Part shown: positions 32,384-40,145 of the stretch, in pieces
Layout: every line of letters starts with the position of its first letter
Numbering within the stretch: the first letter of the stretch is position 1
Assembly: GCA_026388315.1 (NCBI GenBank)
Contig: JAPLKA010000047.1
Location: 1-46,480 of the forward strand
DNA: 46,480 nucleotides
Origin: Pseudomonadota bacterium
GTDB taxonomy: Bacteria; Desulfobacterota; Syntrophorhabdia; Syntrophorhabdales; Syntrophorhabdaceae
Direction: 5' to 3'
Program-made: the position numbers and the translations under genes
The notes under the pieces: generated by a model
What the model was told of the DNA's origin: nothing
What the model saw: the letters and a program-made list of their open reading frames with translations, nothing else
Databases searched by the model: none

Positions 32384-32391
32384 TATAATTG

Positions 32392-34713
32392 ATGCATAAA
32401 ACAAAAACCATCCGCTTTATTCTTTTTGTATTCGTTGCCGGTTTAGGCGGGATTGTTGCGCAGACGATACTTCTAAGGGAGTTGCTCGTCCTCTTTTCCG
32501 GGAATGAATTATCAATAGGGGTCATAATCGGCTCCTGGGTCATATGGGAAGCCATCGGTGCATTTATCGGCGGCACATGTAACCGCAAGGACAACCCTGA
32601 AATACTTGTATTTTCAATAATCCTCTTCTCAGTGCTATTCCCCGCAAGCATCTATCTGACCCGTGTCTTTAAAGTAATTCTCTCTATCCCCCCCGGAGTA
32701 GGAGTGGGGCTTCTCCCTGTTTTTTACTCTTCTTTTCTCATTCTTCTTCCAACAGGAATCCTCCATGGTTTCTTTTTTACCCTGGCGTGTTCAATCCATA
32801 ATCAACTGACCGGCAAAGGGGCATCATCAGTGGGAAAAGTCTATTTCTATGAGATGCTCGGAACGATTGCGGGGGGAATACTGGTAAGCTATATCTTTAT
32901 TCCATATTTCAACTCATTTCATGTTGCCCTCGTTGTAGCCTTGTTGAGTACAGTATCCTGCATGATTTTCATGCTGCATGTTTTTAAAGAAAATAAAACA
33001 GGGCAATCAGGCGGTAGGAAGGCGGGATTGTTTATATTCACCCTTATGCTCTCGGTTTCCACTTTCATTGCCTTGCTATATGATATTGACGATACACTCC
33101 ACTCTACCTCCATCAAGAAACAATGGCCACAACAAAACGTGGTCTTTTATGAAAATTCCGTCTATCAGAATATAGTTGTAATCCAAAATGAGAACCAATA
33201 CACCTTTTTCACTGACGGCATCCCATTCATAACCACGCCCGTACCTGACATTGCCTTTGTGGAGGAATTCGCCCACTTTCCTCTCCTTACCCATCCCCAT
33301 CCTGAAAACGTTCTCATCCTTGGCGGAGGCGCAGGCGGTCTCATTAACGAAATACTCAAACACCCCACTGTAAAAAAGGTGGATTATGTCGAGATAGACC
33401 CTGCCCTCCTCAAGACAATCAGAAGATTTTCAACACCGCTTACAGAAACAGAGTTGAATAATCCCCTTGTCAGGCTTCATTACATAGACGGGAAAATATT
33501 CCTCAAAGAAACGAAAGATAAATATGATGTTGTGCTGATAGGATTGCCCCCGCCATCGACACTTCAGACGAACAGATTCTATACACAGGAATTCTTCACT
33601 ATGGTAAAGTCCATTTTGAAAACCGACGGGATACTCGCCCTTACCATGCCGGGCTCTCAGACTTACTACAGCAGCGAGTTGAAGGAGCTCAACACAAGTA
33701 TCATTGAAACACTCAAGTCCGTATTCGCATACGTCTTTGTCCTCCCCGGTGATTACAACCTTCTTCTCGCTTCGCATTCGGATATAGTGACAGAAATATC
33801 CCCTTCCCTTCTTTACAAAGCATTGAGCCGGCAGCGTATAGAGACAAAATTAATAACCCTTCCACACCTCAATTACCGGTTTGAAAAAAGGTGGCAGGAG
33901 TGGTTTGCCTCTGCCATAGAGGATTCAAAAGCATCAGTGAACAGGGATTTTTCTCCAAAAGGTCTCTATTATACTATTGCCTATCAGAACCTGCTCTTTT
34001 CTCCATCGCTCAAGTCTGTTTTCGATTCAGCAAAACACATCAATTTCACCTCCTTGCTTATTTTCATTTCTGCTGTTTTTCTGTTGTTCCTTCTTCTCAG
34101 GAAAAAGTTCACATACATCGGCATCCCCTATGCAATCACCACAACAGGCTTTGCCGTAATGGTTTTCGAGCTTGTTTTGATGTTTGGTTTTCAGATATTT
34201 TACGGGTATGTCTTCTACGAAATAGGGATTCTCATCACTGTTTTCATGGGAGGCATGGCTGCCGGGAGTCTTATTGTAACCTATCGCGACAGGCGGATCG
34301 GCGCACAAGAATTATCTCTCATGAAGACTCTCGATGCTGCAATGGTAATGTTTTCACTCCTCCTCATGCTTATATTTTCCTTTCCTGAAAAATTATCCTC
34401 CATATCACCCGTTGCCATCCGGCTCATATTTTATATCCTGCTCATGATCTCAGGTTTTTTTGCCGGTATGCAATTCCCGCTTTCCAATGCAATCTATCTG
34501 AATCGTACCGGTCACGAAGGTTTAGGTAACACTCAACCGGTCGGCAGAACTGCGGGGATGCTCTACGGTGCAGACCTTGTTGGCGGGTGCCTCGGAGGCA
34601 TTGTTGGAGGACTCATCGTTCTTCCCGTGCTCGGCCTTCTCCAGGGCTGTCTTCTCCTTGCCGTTCTAAAGGCAACAAGCCTGATCCTCCTGTACACTTT
34701 TCCAAAGAAATAG
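32392..34713 (+). CDS. Membrane-embedded spermidine-synthase-like protein
   Basis: A 773-residue protein with two blocks of hydrophobic helices (about 1-235 and 555-773) flanking a soluble spermidine-synthase-like Rossmann domain (about 250-500). The SAM-type site is NVLILGGGAGGLINEIL followed by VDYVEIDPALLKTIR. Where active spermidine synthases have a catalytic Asp (as in DSSDP), this protein has VVLIGLPPPSTLQ, so aminopropyl transfer is doubtful. Fused MFS/spermidine-synthase-like proteins are common and mostly uncharacterised. The ATG at 32392 is preferred to the in-frame TTG at 32389; no ribosome site is present. Membrane topology and substrate are unknown. Confidence 0.75.
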   Translation: MHKTKTIRFILFVFVAGLGGIVAQTILLRELLVLFSGNELSIGVIIGSWVIWEAIGAFIGGTCNRKDNPEILVFSIILFSVLFPASIYLTRVFKVILSIPPGVGVGLLPVFYSSFLILLPTGILHGFFFTLACSIHNQLTGKGASSVGKVYFYEMLGTIAGGILVSYIFIPYFNSFHVALVVALLSTVSCMIFMLHVFKENKTGQSGGRKAGLFIFTLMLSVSTFIALLYDIDDTLHSTSIKKQWPQQNVVFYENSVYQNIVVIQNENQYTFFTDGIPFITTPVPDIAFVEEFAHFPLLTHPHPENVLILGGGAGGLINEILKHPTVKKVDYVEIDPALLKTIRRFSTPLTETELNNPLVRLHYIDGKIFLKETKDKYDVVLIGLPPPSTLQTNRFYTQEFFTMVKSILKTDGILALTMPGSQTYYSSELKELNTSIIETLKSVFAYVFVLPGDYNLLLASHSDIVTEISPSLLYKALSRQRIETKLITLPHLNYRFEKRWQEWFASAIEDSKASVNRDFSPKGLYYTIAYQNLLFSPSLKSVFDSAKHINFTSLLIFISAVFLLFLLLRKKFTYIGIPYAITTTGFAVMVFELVLMFGFQIFYGYVFYEIGILITVFMGGMAAGSLIVTYRDRRIGAQELSLMKTLDAAMVMFSLLLMLIFSFPEKLSSISPVAIRLIFYILLMISGFFAGMQFPLSNAIYLNRTGHEGLGNTQPVGRTAGMLYGADLVGGCLGGIVGGLIVLPVLGLLQGCLLLAVLKATSLILLYTFPKK

Positions 34714-34980: not shown

Positions 34981-35757
34981 ATGGTCGACACAATATTTTT
35001 TTTGAAAAAAATTGTTTCCCCCCTTTTTCTGCCCTTGCCCATCGTGTCAATCTTGATAGTGAGCGGCTTGATCCTCCTGTGGGCAACTAAGAAGCAATTT
35101 TTAGGTAAAATCTTCGTTACCCTGGGAACGAGCCTGCTCCTACTGACAAGCTTCGGATTTCTGGCAGACCAGCTTACGACATCTCTCGAAAACCGTTATC
35201 TCCCTTTACTCAATGTTAAAGATATTCAAAAGGCCAAAGACATTAAATGGATTGTGGTGCTGGGAGGCGGCAACCTGCCCGATCCACGTTTGCCCCTTTC
35301 CAGTCAGCTTGGTTCGGCGTCGCTGACTCGCCTCTTAGAAGGGGTAAGCCTCCACCGTCAACTCCCCGGTTCAAGGCTCCTTCTTTCCGGCGGAGCCGTA
35401 TTTCAGGACACACCGGAGGCCGAAACGCTTGCGAAGACAGCCCTGTTGATGGGGGTAAAAGAAAACGATATGGTCTGTGAAAATAAATCCCGGGATACGG
35501 CCGATCAGGCAAAATGGATCTCAAGCATCGTTGGCCATAGTCAATTCATTCTCGTGACCTCGGCCATCCACATGCCCCGGTCCATAGCCCTTTTTCGCAA
35601 ATACGGTATGGACCCGATCCCCGCGCCAACCAACTACATGGTCGTCAAACAATCGCAATTCCATCCCGGGATGTTCTTTCCTAGCGCCAGTTCCCTGGGA
35701 ATGTTGGAAGCGGCCAGCCACGAATATCTGGGCATGATCTGGTTGCATGCTCAATAA
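34981..35757 (+). CDS. YdcF/ElyC-family DUF218 membrane protein
   Basis: A 258-residue protein with two N-terminal transmembrane helices (about 10-35 and 42-62) and a DUF218 domain. The conserved WIVVLGGGN strand (about 85-93), LLLSGGAVF, a segment PEAETLAKTALLMGV and NKSRDTADQAKWI, followed by ILVTSAIHMPRSIALFRKYGM, give the usual order. Relatives ElyC and SanA affect envelope integrity in E. coli, and the domain faces the periplasm. The ribosome site is weak. The gene is GC-richer than its flanks, and gene-free DNA lies on both sides, so it is probably monocistronic. Confidence 0.82.
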   Translation: MVDTIFFLKKIVSPLFLPLPIVSILIVSGLILLWATKKQFLGKIFVTLGTSLLLLTSFGFLADQLTTSLENRYLPLLNVKDIQKAKDIKWIVVLGGGNLPDPRLPLSSQLGSASLTRLLEGVSLHRQLPGSRLLLSGGAVFQDTPEAETLAKTALLMGVKENDMVCENKSRDTADQAKWISSIVGHSQFILVTSAIHMPRSIALFRKYGMDPIPAPTNYMVVKQSQFHPGMFFPSASSLGMLEAASHEYLGMIWLHAQ

Positions 35758-35965: not shown

Positions 35966-37075
35966 ATGATAACCAGAAGAGACTTTTTGAGAATTGCCCT
36001 GCTCGCCCCCGTTGTATTGAAGAGTATGCCGGGTAAGCTTTACGCCGACACGAAACCCCAGCTCAAAGAAGCCCTATATTATCAAAGGCTCGACGACAAA
36101 AAGATGACTGTATCATGCCAACTGTGTCCACGTGGATGTATTATTCCGGAAGGTGAAACCGGTTTCTGCCGTGCGAGAAAAAATGTAAGGGGCATACTGC
36201 TCTCCCTTGGATATGCGCAACCCTGTGCGATCCACATCGACCCCATCGAGAAAAAACCATTTTATAATTTTTATCCAAAGAGCATGAGCTTTTCTATAGC
36301 GAGTGCCGGCTGCAATCTGAGGTGCAAGTTCTGTCAGAACTGGCAGATATCTCAAGTTTCCCCGCTCGATACCGTAAACCAGTACAGTCTGCCGGATAAA
36401 ATTGTATCAACTGCAAAATCAAGCGGATGCAGAAGCATAGCCTATACCTACACAGAGCCGACAAATTTCTTTGAATACATGCTTGATACAGCAAAGCTTG
36501 CAAGAAGTAACGGCATTCTCAACGTGAACCATTCAAACGGTTACATCAACCCGGAACCGCTGAAAGAACTCTGCAAATACCTCGATGCGGCGAATATCGA
36601 CCTAAAGGGGTTCAGCAACGATTTTTATAACAGAATCTGCGAAGCCGAACTAAATCCGGTGCTTGAAACGATAAAAACACTCAAGAAATCAGGGGTATGG
36701 GTGGAGATAACAAATCTTGTCATCCCTGGTTACAACGATGATATGAAGATGATTACAAAATTATGTGAGTGGGTAAAAAACGATGTAGGTGCGGACACGC
36801 CTGTCCATTTTTCCCGTTTTTACCCCATGTATAAAATGACCGGTGTTGCCCCCACCCCGGTGAGCACGCTCGAGAAAGCACGGGAAATTGCCATAAAAAC
36901 AGGGCTCCATTACCCATATGTGGGAAATGTCCCCGGTCATCCGGGAGACAATACATACTGTCCCAACTGCAAAAAGATGCTGGTAAAAAGGGCCGGATAC
37001 AGCATTCTTGAGAACGCGGTAAAGAATGGAAAATGCAAATATTGCGGGACAAAGATAGGAGGAATATGGGGATGA
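35966..37075 (+). CDS. amrS: AmmeMemoRadiSam system radical SAM enzyme with a Tat signal
   Basis: A 369-residue radical SAM protein. The [4Fe-4S] motif is AGCNLRCKFCQNW with Cys116, Cys120 and Cys123. An N-terminal Cys block (SCQLCPRGCIIPEGETGFC) and a C-terminal zinc-ribbon-like CPNCKK...CKYCG match the AmrS family. It begins MITRRDFLRIALLAPVVL, a twin-arginine signal with RRDFLR, so the folded, cofactor-loaded enzyme may be exported by Tat. AmrS is named for its genomic link to Memo and AMMECR1 proteins; its reaction is unknown. Those two domains are fused in the next gene, whose start overlaps this stop by 4 bp. The C-terminal GIWG and AGGAGG site of the neighbour overlap. Confidence 0.93.
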   Translation: MITRRDFLRIALLAPVVLKSMPGKLYADTKPQLKEALYYQRLDDKKMTVSCQLCPRGCIIPEGETGFCRARKNVRGILLSLGYAQPCAIHIDPIEKKPFYNFYPKSMSFSIASAGCNLRCKFCQNWQISQVSPLDTVNQYSLPDKIVSTAKSSGCRSIAYTYTEPTNFFEYMLDTAKLARSNGILNVNHSNGYINPEPLKELCKYLDAANIDLKGFSNDFYNRICEAELNPVLETIKTLKKSGVWVEITNLVIPGYNDDMKMITKLCEWVKNDVGADTPVHFSRFYPMYKMTGVAPTPVSTLEKAREIAIKTGLHYPYVGNVPGHPGDNTYCPNCKKMLVKRAGYSILENAVKNGKCKYCGTKIGGIWG

Positions 37076-38571
37076 AAACAGTTTTGAGTTTTGAGTTTCG
37101 AGTTTTGAGTTATAAACACCTTATCATTGCCCTTGGCATATTTTTCATATTTTTTGTCTCAACCCTCTGCAATGCTGAGGAGGGGCAGCAGAAAGTAAAA
37201 AAACCGGCTTTTGCAGGGTCTTTTTATCCGGCGGACAAGCATCAACTGGAGAAAAAGATAGATGGGTATCTCAAAGAGGCTGAGGCAAAGAGTGAAAAGA
37301 TTCCTTCACAGATTTTTGGTGTTATTTCTCCCCATGCAGGATACGAGTATTCAGGACAGGTTGCAGCGTACGGATATAACCAGATAAAAGGAAAAGATTA
37401 CAAAACCGTGATTATTATCGGGTCGAGTCACCAGGTGCCTTTCAAGGGAATCTCGATTTACCCTTCAGGCTCCTGGGAAACCCCACTCGGAAATGTCCAG
37501 ATAGACCGGAAGATTGCACAATATCTCATGGATAACTGCAAATCCGTAAAGGTCTATCCCGCGGCCTTTGTCCGTGAGCATTCCCTGGAGGTACAGGTGC
37601 CTTTCCTCCAGCGCTCTCTTAAATCATTTAACATTGTACCTCTGGTTACCGGGTCTCTTGATGGAGATGACTATAAAAACCTTTCCGATGCCCTCCTGAA
37701 ACTCCTCAAACAAAACCCGAAAGACATCCTCATTGTTGCATCCTCCGACATGTCCCACTATCACTCTTATAACAAAGCGTCCCAAATGGACAAACTCGCC
37801 TTAAAAGACATGGAAGAACTTGGTATCGAAAAACTCTTTGAAAATCTTTACAATGGGAATTGCGAATTGTGCGGCGCCCCCGGTGTGATTACCCTCATGA
37901 TGGTAGCCTCGAAGCTGAACGCCCGGGCGAAAACCCTTTATTATGCAAATTCCGGCGATGTGACACGTGATAAAGACAGGGTTGTGGGATACGGGGCCGT
38001 TGCCTTTATGTATCCCGACAAAAGCGACTCCGCTCTGAGCAAGCAAGAACAGAATACATTACTTATGATTGCCCGCAAAACCCTCGATGAATATATCTCA
38101 AAGGGCAATATCCCGCAGTTTGATATTAAAGCAGGCAAGCTCCTTGAAAAAAGAGGGGTCTTTGTTACGCTTACAAAAAATCATGACCTCCGCGGGTGCA
38201 TTGGATATATTGTGCCGGTTGCACCATTATACAAAGCAGTTATAGAAATGACGGTATCAGCGTCAACCAGGGACCCCCGCTTTCCTCCTGTTTCAAAAGG
38301 GGAATTGAAAGACATTAATATTGAAATATCAGCACTCACCCCTTTAAAACTTATCAATGATCCAAACAGTATCGAAGTTGGAAAACATGGTTTGTATATA
38401 ACAAAAGGTAACTATTCCGGTCTCCTGTTGCCGCAGGTGGCCACAGAGCATAAATGGAACAGGGAAGAATTTCTCAGACAGACCTGCATGAAAGCCGGTC
38501 TCCCGTCAACGGCGTGGAAGGATAAAGGAACAAACATTTATACCTTCATGGCACAGATATTTTCTGAATAG
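37072..38571 (+). CDS. Fused AmmeMemoRadiSam B (Memo) and A (AMMECR1) protein, secreted
   Basis: A 499-residue fusion. Residues 1-35 form a Sec-type signal peptide (hydrophobic core HLIIALGIFFIFFVSTLC, cleavage after CNA). Residues 45-315 are a Memo domain related to extradiol dioxygenases: AGSFYPAD, VISPHAGYEYSG, IGSSHQVPF, EHSLEVQVPF and ELCGAPGVIT carry the expected His/Cys ligands. Residues 330-499 are AMMECR1, with LRGCIGYI (about 373-380) and ASTRDPRFPPV. The ATG at 37072 overlaps the previous stop and has AGGAGG 9 nt upstream. Codons 4-15 lie in a period-7 repeat, so the n-region of the signal is repeat-encoded. With the Tat-signalled radical SAM partner, all three parts of the system appear to be outside the cytoplasm. 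Confidence 0.92.
   Translation: MKTVLSFEFRVLSYKHLIIALGIFFIFFVSTLCNAEEGQQKVKKPAFAGSFYPADKHQLEKKIDGYLKEAEAKSEKIPSQIFGVISPHAGYEYSGQVAAYGYNQIKGKDYKTVIIIGSSHQVPFKGISIYPSGSWETPLGNVQIDRKIAQYLMDNCKSVKVYPAAFVREHSLEVQVPFLQRSLKSFNIVPLVTGSLDGDDYKNLSDALLKLLKQNPKDILIVASSDMSHYHSYNKASQMDKLALKDMEELGIEKLFENLYNGNCELCGAPGVITLMMVASKLNARAKTLYYANSGDVTRDKDRVVGYGAVAFMYPDKSDSALSKQEQNTLLMIARKTLDEYISKGNIPQFDIKAGKLLEKRGVFVTLTKNHDLRGCIGYIVPVAPLYKAVIEMTVSASTRDPRFPPVSKGELKDINIEISALTPLKLINDPNSIEVGKHGLYITKGNYSGLLLPQVATEHKWNREEFLRQTCMKAGLPSTAWKDKGTNIYTFMAQIFSE
37081..37115. repeat. Period-7 repeat inside a signal-peptide coding region
   Basis: Five in-register words, GTTTTGA, GTTTTGA, GTTTCGA, GTTTTGA, GTTATAA. They are translated as VLSFEFRVLSYK in the Memo/AMMECR1 protein. 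Thirty-five bases is not a multiple of three, so the repeat length was constrained by frame at some point. Confidence 0.8.
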
Positions 38572-39246: not shown

Positions 39247-40145
39247 AAACCATTAATGTAGCCATCATCGGCGCCGGCCCTGCCGGTATTGCAGCATCAA
39301 TACAACTCAAACGCTATGGAATCGACACTATACTCTTTGAAAAAAACGGTGTCGGGGGGCTGCTGCGGAACGCTAACTTTGTTGAGAATTATCCGGGGTT
39401 TCCTAAGGGGATTTCAGGCAGCCGCCTTGTCAACTCTTTCAAAAAACAATTGGAAGCCCTCTCGATAAATGTTCTCCTCGAAGAGGTTTTGAGGCTTGAC
39501 CTCGAAGACAAAACGAAAAAAGGTTTCATTATAGAGACTGCCGCCGGGCTTTACAGGTCAAGCATGACAGTCATTACTACGGGAACAAAGCCAAAGAAGG
39601 CTGCATCCATTACGATACCGGACAACGTTAAAGGCAATATCTACTATGAAATCCTCCCTATTATTGCAACAAGAAGAAAGACGATCATTATTGCAGGTGG
39701 CGGAGATGCCGCCTTTGATTATGCCCTGAACCTCGGAAGATATAACGAGGTAATTATCCTCAACCGGACCGACAGAACAAGATGCCTCCCTCTTCTGCGG
39801 GAGAGGGCCTCCCTTCTGAAAAACATTACTTATCATGAAAATACCTTAATCTCAGGGGTTACACAATCGCCTGACCATGGATTGCATATCACATGTTTAA
39901 TGCCCGGCGGTGTGGCCGCCTTTTCTGCCGATTATCTGATATTTGCCGTCGGTAGAGAGCCACAACTTGATTTTCTTGCTGAAAAAGTGAAGAATAGTAT
40001 CCCCCCTTTGAAGGAAAAAGGGATTCTTTATTTCGCCGGCGATGTGCACAACGGTGATTTCAGACAGACCTCTATCGCTACAGGGGAGGGTATCATGACA
40101 GCCATGAAGATTCAGCGAATAATGAAGGAGGCACAAAAAGGATGA
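39243..40145 (+). CDS. Thioredoxin-reductase-like FAD/NAD(P) oxidoreductase, CTG start
   Basis: A 300-residue flavoprotein. The frame opens with LKTINVAIIGAGPAGIAAS, with the FAD Rossmann motif GAGPAG at 10-15, then VGGLLRNANFVENYPGFP, a second Rossmann GGGDAAFD (around 150) and a final YFAGDVHNGDF. TrxB-type layout is clear, but the redox CxxC of thioredoxin reductase is absent, so it resembles TrxR-like ferredoxin/flavodoxin reductases. No ATG, GTG or TTG lies near the conserved N terminus. A CTG at 39243 overlaps the preceding TGA (CTGA), with GAGG 7 nt upstream, so I call CTG as the start. An ATG at 39450 would remove the FAD site. It overlaps the RlmN-like gene by 4 bp and could feed electrons to radical SAM enzymes. 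Confidence 0.85.
   Translation: MKTINVAIIGAGPAGIAASIQLKRYGIDTILFEKNGVGGLLRNANFVENYPGFPKGISGSRLVNSFKKQLEALSINVLLEEVLRLDLEDKTKKGFIIETAAGLYRSSMTVITTGTKPKKAASITIPDNVKGNIYYEILPIIATRRKTIIIAGGGDAAFDYALNLGRYNEVIILNRTDRTRCLPLLRERASLLKNITYHENTLISGVTQSPDHGLHITCLMPGGVAAFSADYLIFAVGREPQLDFLAEKVKNSIPPLKEKGILYFAGDVHNGDFRQTSIATGEGIMTAMKIQRIMKEAQKG

Follow-up and report, generated by a model that had tools for sequence, protein, structure and literature searches.

A branch of the AmmeMemoRadiSam system predicted to act outside the cytoplasm

Results and Discussion

Organization of the locus

The window, which is the whole stretch of 46,480 nucleotides analysed here, carries an amrS gene overlapping a gene for a Memo-AMMECR1 fusion and, upstream of both, a gene for an MFS-type membrane protein with an inserted spermidine-synthase-like domain (Table 1). 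AmrS, Memo and AMMECR1 each score above their curated cut-offs (386, 285 and 185 bits), so the two genes hold all three named components of the AmmeMemoRadiSam system (TIGR04337, TIGR04336 and TIGR04335), as the initial annotation had stated. The catalytic and metal-binding residues of that system are kept as well; the locus differs from it in that each of the two genes encodes an export signal, Memo is joined to AMMECR1 in one protein, the unit includes an MFS/spermidine-synthase-like gene, and the same genome has a parallel set that lacks signals. The initial annotation had overlooked both the MFS/spermidine-synthase-like gene and this second set.

Table 1. Positions of the genes, domains and motifs of the exported unit in the window
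Feature	Position	Strand	Basis or remark
MFS-type membrane protein, 14 helices, inserted spermidine-synthase-like domain	32389..34713	+	belongs to the conserved exported unit
Spermidine-synthase-like domain (residues 231-552), between helices 7 and 8	33079..34044	+	predicted extracytoplasmic; catalytic Asp missing
Exported-type AmrS (AmmeMemoRadiSam radical SAM enzyme, 369 aa)	35966..37075	+	TIGR04337 386 bits (cut-off 220)
Predicted Tat signal of AmrS (residues 1-27)	35966..36046	+	TRRDFLR motif at 35972-35992
N-terminal four-cysteine motif of AmrS (C51, C54, C58, C68)	36116..36169	+	invariant, 44 homologues
Radical SAM motif CxxxCxxC (C116, C120, C123)	36311..36334	+	invariant, 44 homologues
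C-terminal CxxC...CxxC motif of AmrS (C332, C335, C357, C360)	36959..37045	+	invariant, 44 homologues
Memo-AMMECR1 fusion with Sec signal, 501 aa	37066..38571	+	TIGR04336 285 bits (cut-off 26), TIGR04335 185 bits (cut-off 99), PF01875, PF01871; alternative start 37072
Predicted Sec signal peptide of the fusion, cleavage after CNA	37066..37176	+	sequence; hydrophobic N-termini of fusions beside AmrS
Memo domain	37198..38007	+	keeps metal ligands equivalent to human MEMO1 H49, H81, C244
AMMECR1 domain	38056..38562	+	TIGR04335 185 bits; PDB 1vaj, 1zq7

The AmrS of the window

The N-terminus of the window AmrS, MITRRDFLRIALLAPVVLKSMPGKLYADTK (also quoted as MITRRDFLRIALLAPVVL), opens with MITRRDFLR and bears out the twin-arginine signal described in the initial annotation. 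The stretch TRRDFLRIALLAPVVL has the hallmark of a Tat substrate, a twin-arginine motif followed by a hydrophobic segment, and the genome contains two tatC genes. An alignment with 21 homologues revealed that only R4, R5 and F7 are invariant in the signal region while the rest of the signal diverges. The pattern RR.F[LIVMF] occurs in 0.5% of shuffled N-termini versus 21/21 of these homologues, a figure that measures conservation rather than frequency, the homologues having been chosen as RR-type. Export signals were called by motif and hydropathy scripts throughout. The hydrophobic core of the window signal is short, and the possible cleavage site, between LYA and D, is not a textbook AxA.

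The AlphaFold model of AmrS has a pLDDT of 92.7, with low confidence near the end of the Tat signal, and its nearest fold is the PFL activating enzyme 3cb8. The PF04055 match (75 bits), the CxxxCxxC motif and the barrel place the protein in the radical SAM superfamily. TYxEP, CxxxCxxC and both other cysteine motifs are invariant across 44 AmrS proteins, exported and cytoplasmic alike. With Tat-exported Fe-S enzymes such as hydrogenase small subunits, AmrS shares an RRxFLK-type signal, a cysteine-rich cofactor enzyme behind it and tatC in the genome; unlike them, as a radical SAM enzyme it needs SAM and a low-potential electron at its point of use.

The Memo-AMMECR1 fusion

The fusion most likely starts at the ATG at 37066, behind a GGAGGA at 37058, and not at the first ATG of the ORF (37033); from this start the gene overlaps the last ten bases of amrS. 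With the start so corrected, the N-terminus reads MGMKTVLSFEFRVLSYKHLIIALGIFFIFFVSTLCNA, followed by EEG, and the Sec signal with a CNA cleavage site claimed for the overlapping partner holds. Its n-region is unusually long. At 37080-37116 the n-region (TVLSFEFRVLSYK) is encoded by tandem GAGTTTTGA-like units; long n-regions also occur in relatives (e.g. FNFELLIFNFK), which gives the impression that the gene start was invaded by a repeat.

The Memo domain is homologous to human MEMO1 (PDB 7KQ8), in which H49, H81 and C244 are the metal ligands (PMC11081632); these are kept in the window fusion and wherever they could be aligned across 95 Memo domains. The window Memo differs from the human protein in being predicted as exported and in being fused to AMMECR1.

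The MFS/spermidine-synthase-like protein

The AlphaFold model of the third protein (pLDDT 93.3) has seven helices, a spermidine-synthase-like domain and seven further helices in that order. The membrane part has an MFS fold by its match to SV2A (9okg; Z 26.3, rmsd 4.4 over 365 residues), and a Pfam search gave no match of the protein to the MFS profile. The inserted domain has a spermidine-synthase fold, matching 1uir with Z 30.6 and rmsd 3.3 over 297 residues, and the whole protein barely passes NF037959, fused MFS/spermidine synthase (42.8 versus 40). Averaged over 46 homologues, K+R content is higher in every predicted inner loop than in every outer loop, a positive-inside pattern that places the inserted domain outside the membrane. 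MFS-type helices and a spermidine-synthase fold are thus common to the window protein, the NF037959 proteins and the membrane PRK03612 proteins; in the window protein, by contrast, the domain is inserted after helix 7, on what is predicted to be the outer side, and lacks the catalytic Asp, and the protein is linked to an exported AmrS.

The catalytic Asp of VDSxDP is missing in 43/46 members (present in 3/46; Gly in the window protein), and residues of the nucleotide site are kept (D367 in 46/46, E335 in 42/46), from which the domain should bind a SAM-like ligand and not transfer aminopropyl groups. The same observations bear on an alternative in which the protein supplies or moves not SAM but a polyamine-like compound, which would then be what the radical enzyme modifies outside. 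The domain is nearest to aminopropyltransferases, and an 'spm-bound' structure is among the better matches of the membrane part; however, MFS is a broad fold, so that the latter match says little about the cargo, and the spermidine synthase catalytic Asp is gone from nearly all members. We consider this alternative unlikely.

An ElyC-like (DUF218) gene at 34981-35757 separates the membrane protein gene from amrS. It was rejected as a component of the system: it is absent between the two genes in a relative of the same genus (L037) and is therefore treated as an insertion. Downstream of the fusion, at 39450-40145, an ORF of 231 aa resembles thioredoxin reductase but has no counterpart of that family's N-terminal part, and is possibly truncated or called from a wrong start codon.

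Signal-less paralogues and related genomes

The window genome encodes a second AmrS without a signal on contig C55 (175/338 aligned columns, 52%, identical to the window AmrS) and, on C128, has Memo and AMMECR1 as two separate genes, likewise without signals; it thus possesses an ordinary cytoplasmic set in addition to the exported one. A distant, N-terminally extended Memo homologue lies upstream of a NuoE-like gene (L006, G000:C110, 1090-2364), and most relatives have one as well.

In 60 related genomes we collected 81 AmrS genes, 36 with an RR signal and 45 without a signal. Memo lies within 5 kb of 28/36 RR-type AmrS genes versus 0/45 signal-less ones, and the MFS/spermidine-synthase-like gene is in the same locus in 26/36 (all on the same strand) versus 1/45 (on the other strand); Fisher tests on these pairings take each gene as independent and ignore relatedness. 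The Memo and MFS/spermidine-synthase-like partners of RR-type AmrS are always on the AmrS strand, and some missing partners are accounted for by contig ends. With 64 loci, the MFS/spermidine-synthase-like gene is the commonest neighbour after Memo. The window gene is part of the same conserved unit as amrS and the fusion gene. A strongly hydrophobic N-terminus is found on 61/64 Memo-AMMECR1 fusions beside AmrS versus 1/24 separate Memo proteins. The survey called for in the initial annotation, of how often RR-type AmrS pairs with signal-bearing Memo, thus came out in favour of the pairing.

These comparisons already contradict the simplest explanation, an ordinary cytoplasmic AmmeMemoRadiSam system whose N-termini resemble signals by chance. 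The domains are indeed those of ordinary family members, but the rarity of the motif in shuffled N-termini set against its conservation in the homologues, together with the separate signal-less set in the same genome, leaves this explanation with hardly any probability.

Among viral contigs, only five relatives were found. In seven loci (L042, L102, L161, L163, L174, L176 and L180) exported AmrS is adjoined by another radical SAM gene, related in type, head to head or divergent and with no Memo nearby; in L042 and L102 this second gene has a Tat-like N-terminus.

Export routes across phyla

A wider sample of eighty named loci was picked for similarity to the exported type, and its proportions are accordingly not population frequencies. 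It covers Omnitrophota, Elusimicrobiota, Thermodesulfobacteriota, Myxococcota, Bacteroidota, Ignavibacteriota, Aminicenantes, Acidobacteriota, KSB1, Latescibacterota, Chloroflexota and others. When signal typing took in as many as 100 upstream residues, AmrS in the named genomes has a Tat-type signal (RR or KR) in 46 cases, a Sec-type signal or anchor (TM) in 23 and none in 12. In the tree the exported AmrS types fall mostly together, apart from a cytoplasmic clade that holds the second copy of the window genome, and about five changes between Sec and Tat occur while export persists.

If the Tat signal is functional, genomes without Tat are expected to lack it. We found tatC in 24/26 genomes with Tat-type AmrS versus 6/22 with Sec-type AmrS (16/22 of the latter without tatC), giving a p of about 5e-6 over the 47 rows in the tree with kinship ignored. 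Three loci (L165, L170 and L184) first typed as RR/KR proved to be accidental pattern matches and were manually reassigned to Sec ahead of this test. Genomes in which tatC was not found include those of L151, L153, L157, L158, L165, L170, L178, L182, L185, L186, L211 and L216, many of them Omnitrophota and the others further small MAGs, each with an AmrS homologue bearing a Sec-type signal; the absence of tatC from MAGs may reflect incompleteness.

In the named genomes, 17/23 Sec-type AmrS genes versus 0/46 Tat-type ones have, on their own strand and no more than 3 kb away, a gene for a DsbD/CcdA-like membrane thiol reductase. It is plausible that a cysteine-rich enzyme crossing unfolded by Sec needs reduced thiols outside, whereas a Tat passenger folded inside does not. 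The tatC and DsbD tests contain two to five independent Tat/Sec contrasts, nearly all of which agree or tie, too few for significance. In L182 and L185 DsbD_2 is joined to FMN_bind and Fer4_5. The proteins of L187 and L196, which had been candidates for DsbD, have no DsbD_2 match and are NosR-like instead (FMN_bind, Fer4_5); they adjoin AmrS. In Aminicenantes, KSB1 and relatives a DUF362 protein lies directly upstream of exported AmrS (L179, L188, L190, L200, L204, L207, L212, L217, L223 and L226).

Two further features point to an outer location. Memo signals in several phyla end in a lipobox-like motif (e.g. L150, L181, L205 and L224), and in seven AmrS proteins (L198, L202, L224 and L263-L266), which come from Chloroflexota, Latescibacterota and relatives, the stretch that separates the Tat signal from the radical SAM domain holds a CxxCH with a distal His after it. 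Attachment of haem c takes place outside the cytoplasm, so these segments may be built-in electron carriers. CxxCH was counted solely where it falls in the extension that follows the Tat signal, chance CxxCH occurring in other cysteine motifs of some AmrS proteins; it was dropped as a haem site where it lies within a zinc ribbon or the N-terminal cysteine motif.

The N-terminal segments might instead be uncleaved or vestigial, with the proteins active inside the cytoplasm or at the cytoplasmic side of the membrane. The short hydrophobic core of the window AmrS and its lack of a canonical cleavage site speak for this reading, but it does not account for the strict conservation of RR, the matching signals on both partners, the link to tatC, the lipoboxes or the CxxCH segments, and we regard it as very improbable. 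Judged from these sequence comparisons, export of this AmmeMemoRadiSam branch appears to be real and ancient, and the action outside the cytoplasm proposed in the initial annotation is well supported by the paired signals, the tatC link, the linked unit and the route survey. Its further proposal, loading of the enzyme ahead of export, agrees with the Tat lineages, that of the window genome among them, but not with the Sec-signal relatives, which are mostly without tatC and have a DsbD/CcdA-like gene.

Proposed mechanism

We propose that the locus probably encodes an AmmeMemoRadiSam variant dedicated to work outside the cytoplasm, in which a Tat-exported AmrS, a Sec-exported fusion and an outer SAM-type domain would act together on an envelope molecule. 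Comparison supports the predicted export of AmrS and the fusion, the conservation of the unit and the intact catalytic and metal-binding residues. AmrS would fold and receive its iron-sulfur clusters in the cytoplasm and then cross the membrane by Tat, and the fusion would cross by Sec and act beside it. The MFS/spermidine-synthase-like protein would present its SAM-type binding domain on the outer membrane face, where we infer that it works with AmrS and the fusion; it might bring SAM (or a relative) outside or clear its product, carriage of SAM being a guess. Exported AmrS would make the 5'-deoxyadenosyl radical outside and modify an envelope molecule, our guess at the substrate, assisted by Memo with its Fe/Cu site and by AMMECR1, the three proteins presumably acting together on one substrate. 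Cell-envelope modification, the task put forward in the initial annotation, would be a plausible one for AmrS. As electron donors we can only guess at CcdA/DsbD, NosR-like proteins or c-haem in some lineages: the membrane electron carriers adjoin AmrS in Sec-type or signal-less lineages, and a search for a donor gene beside the window system found none, DsbD/CcdA-like and NosR-like genes occurring only in other lineages.

The absence of such a gene also speaks for an alternative in which the proteins are exported but AmrS performs no radical chemistry outside, forming with Memo-AMMECR1 a metal- or redox-handling module in which the residues of the SAM site are kept for another ligand. No source of SAM and no donor is known outside the cytoplasm, and the human homologue MEMO1 is a binder of Fe and Cu with no demonstrated enzyme activity (PMC11081632). 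Against this, CxxxCxxC, the N- and C-terminal cysteine motifs and TYxEP are invariant in exported and cytoplasmic proteins, and the linked MFS protein includes a fold of the SAM type; we rate such a module as a rather improbable reading.

In a bolder form of the preferred reading, every step of a complete radical SAM system would take place outside the cytoplasm; an MFS transporter of its own would handle SAM, and membrane proteins conducting thiols or electrons would have been recruited at Tat-to-Sec switches. We put this forward tentatively, as a possibility that we lean against. The accepted view is that radical SAM enzymes depend on cytoplasmic SAM and on electrons of low potential, and we know of none that works outside the cytoplasm; nor do we know of a precedent for Sec export of a cysteine-rich Fe-S enzyme, as in the tatC-less lineages. 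A widespread and ancient exported branch, if real, would imply SAM and a strong reductant beyond the membrane and, in lineages without Tat, Fe-S assembly after Sec export. The unexplained Memo and AMMECR1 families, which have human members, would gain a defined place and a partner set for functional tests, and two strain-named, non-MAG hosts carry the system, Desulfoferrobacter suflitae DRH4 (L218) and Dethiosulfatarculus sandiegensis SPR (L222). The component families are already known, and the predicted exported variant is what appears to be new; a literature search that covered a minority of the subscription papers found no report of an exported AmrS.
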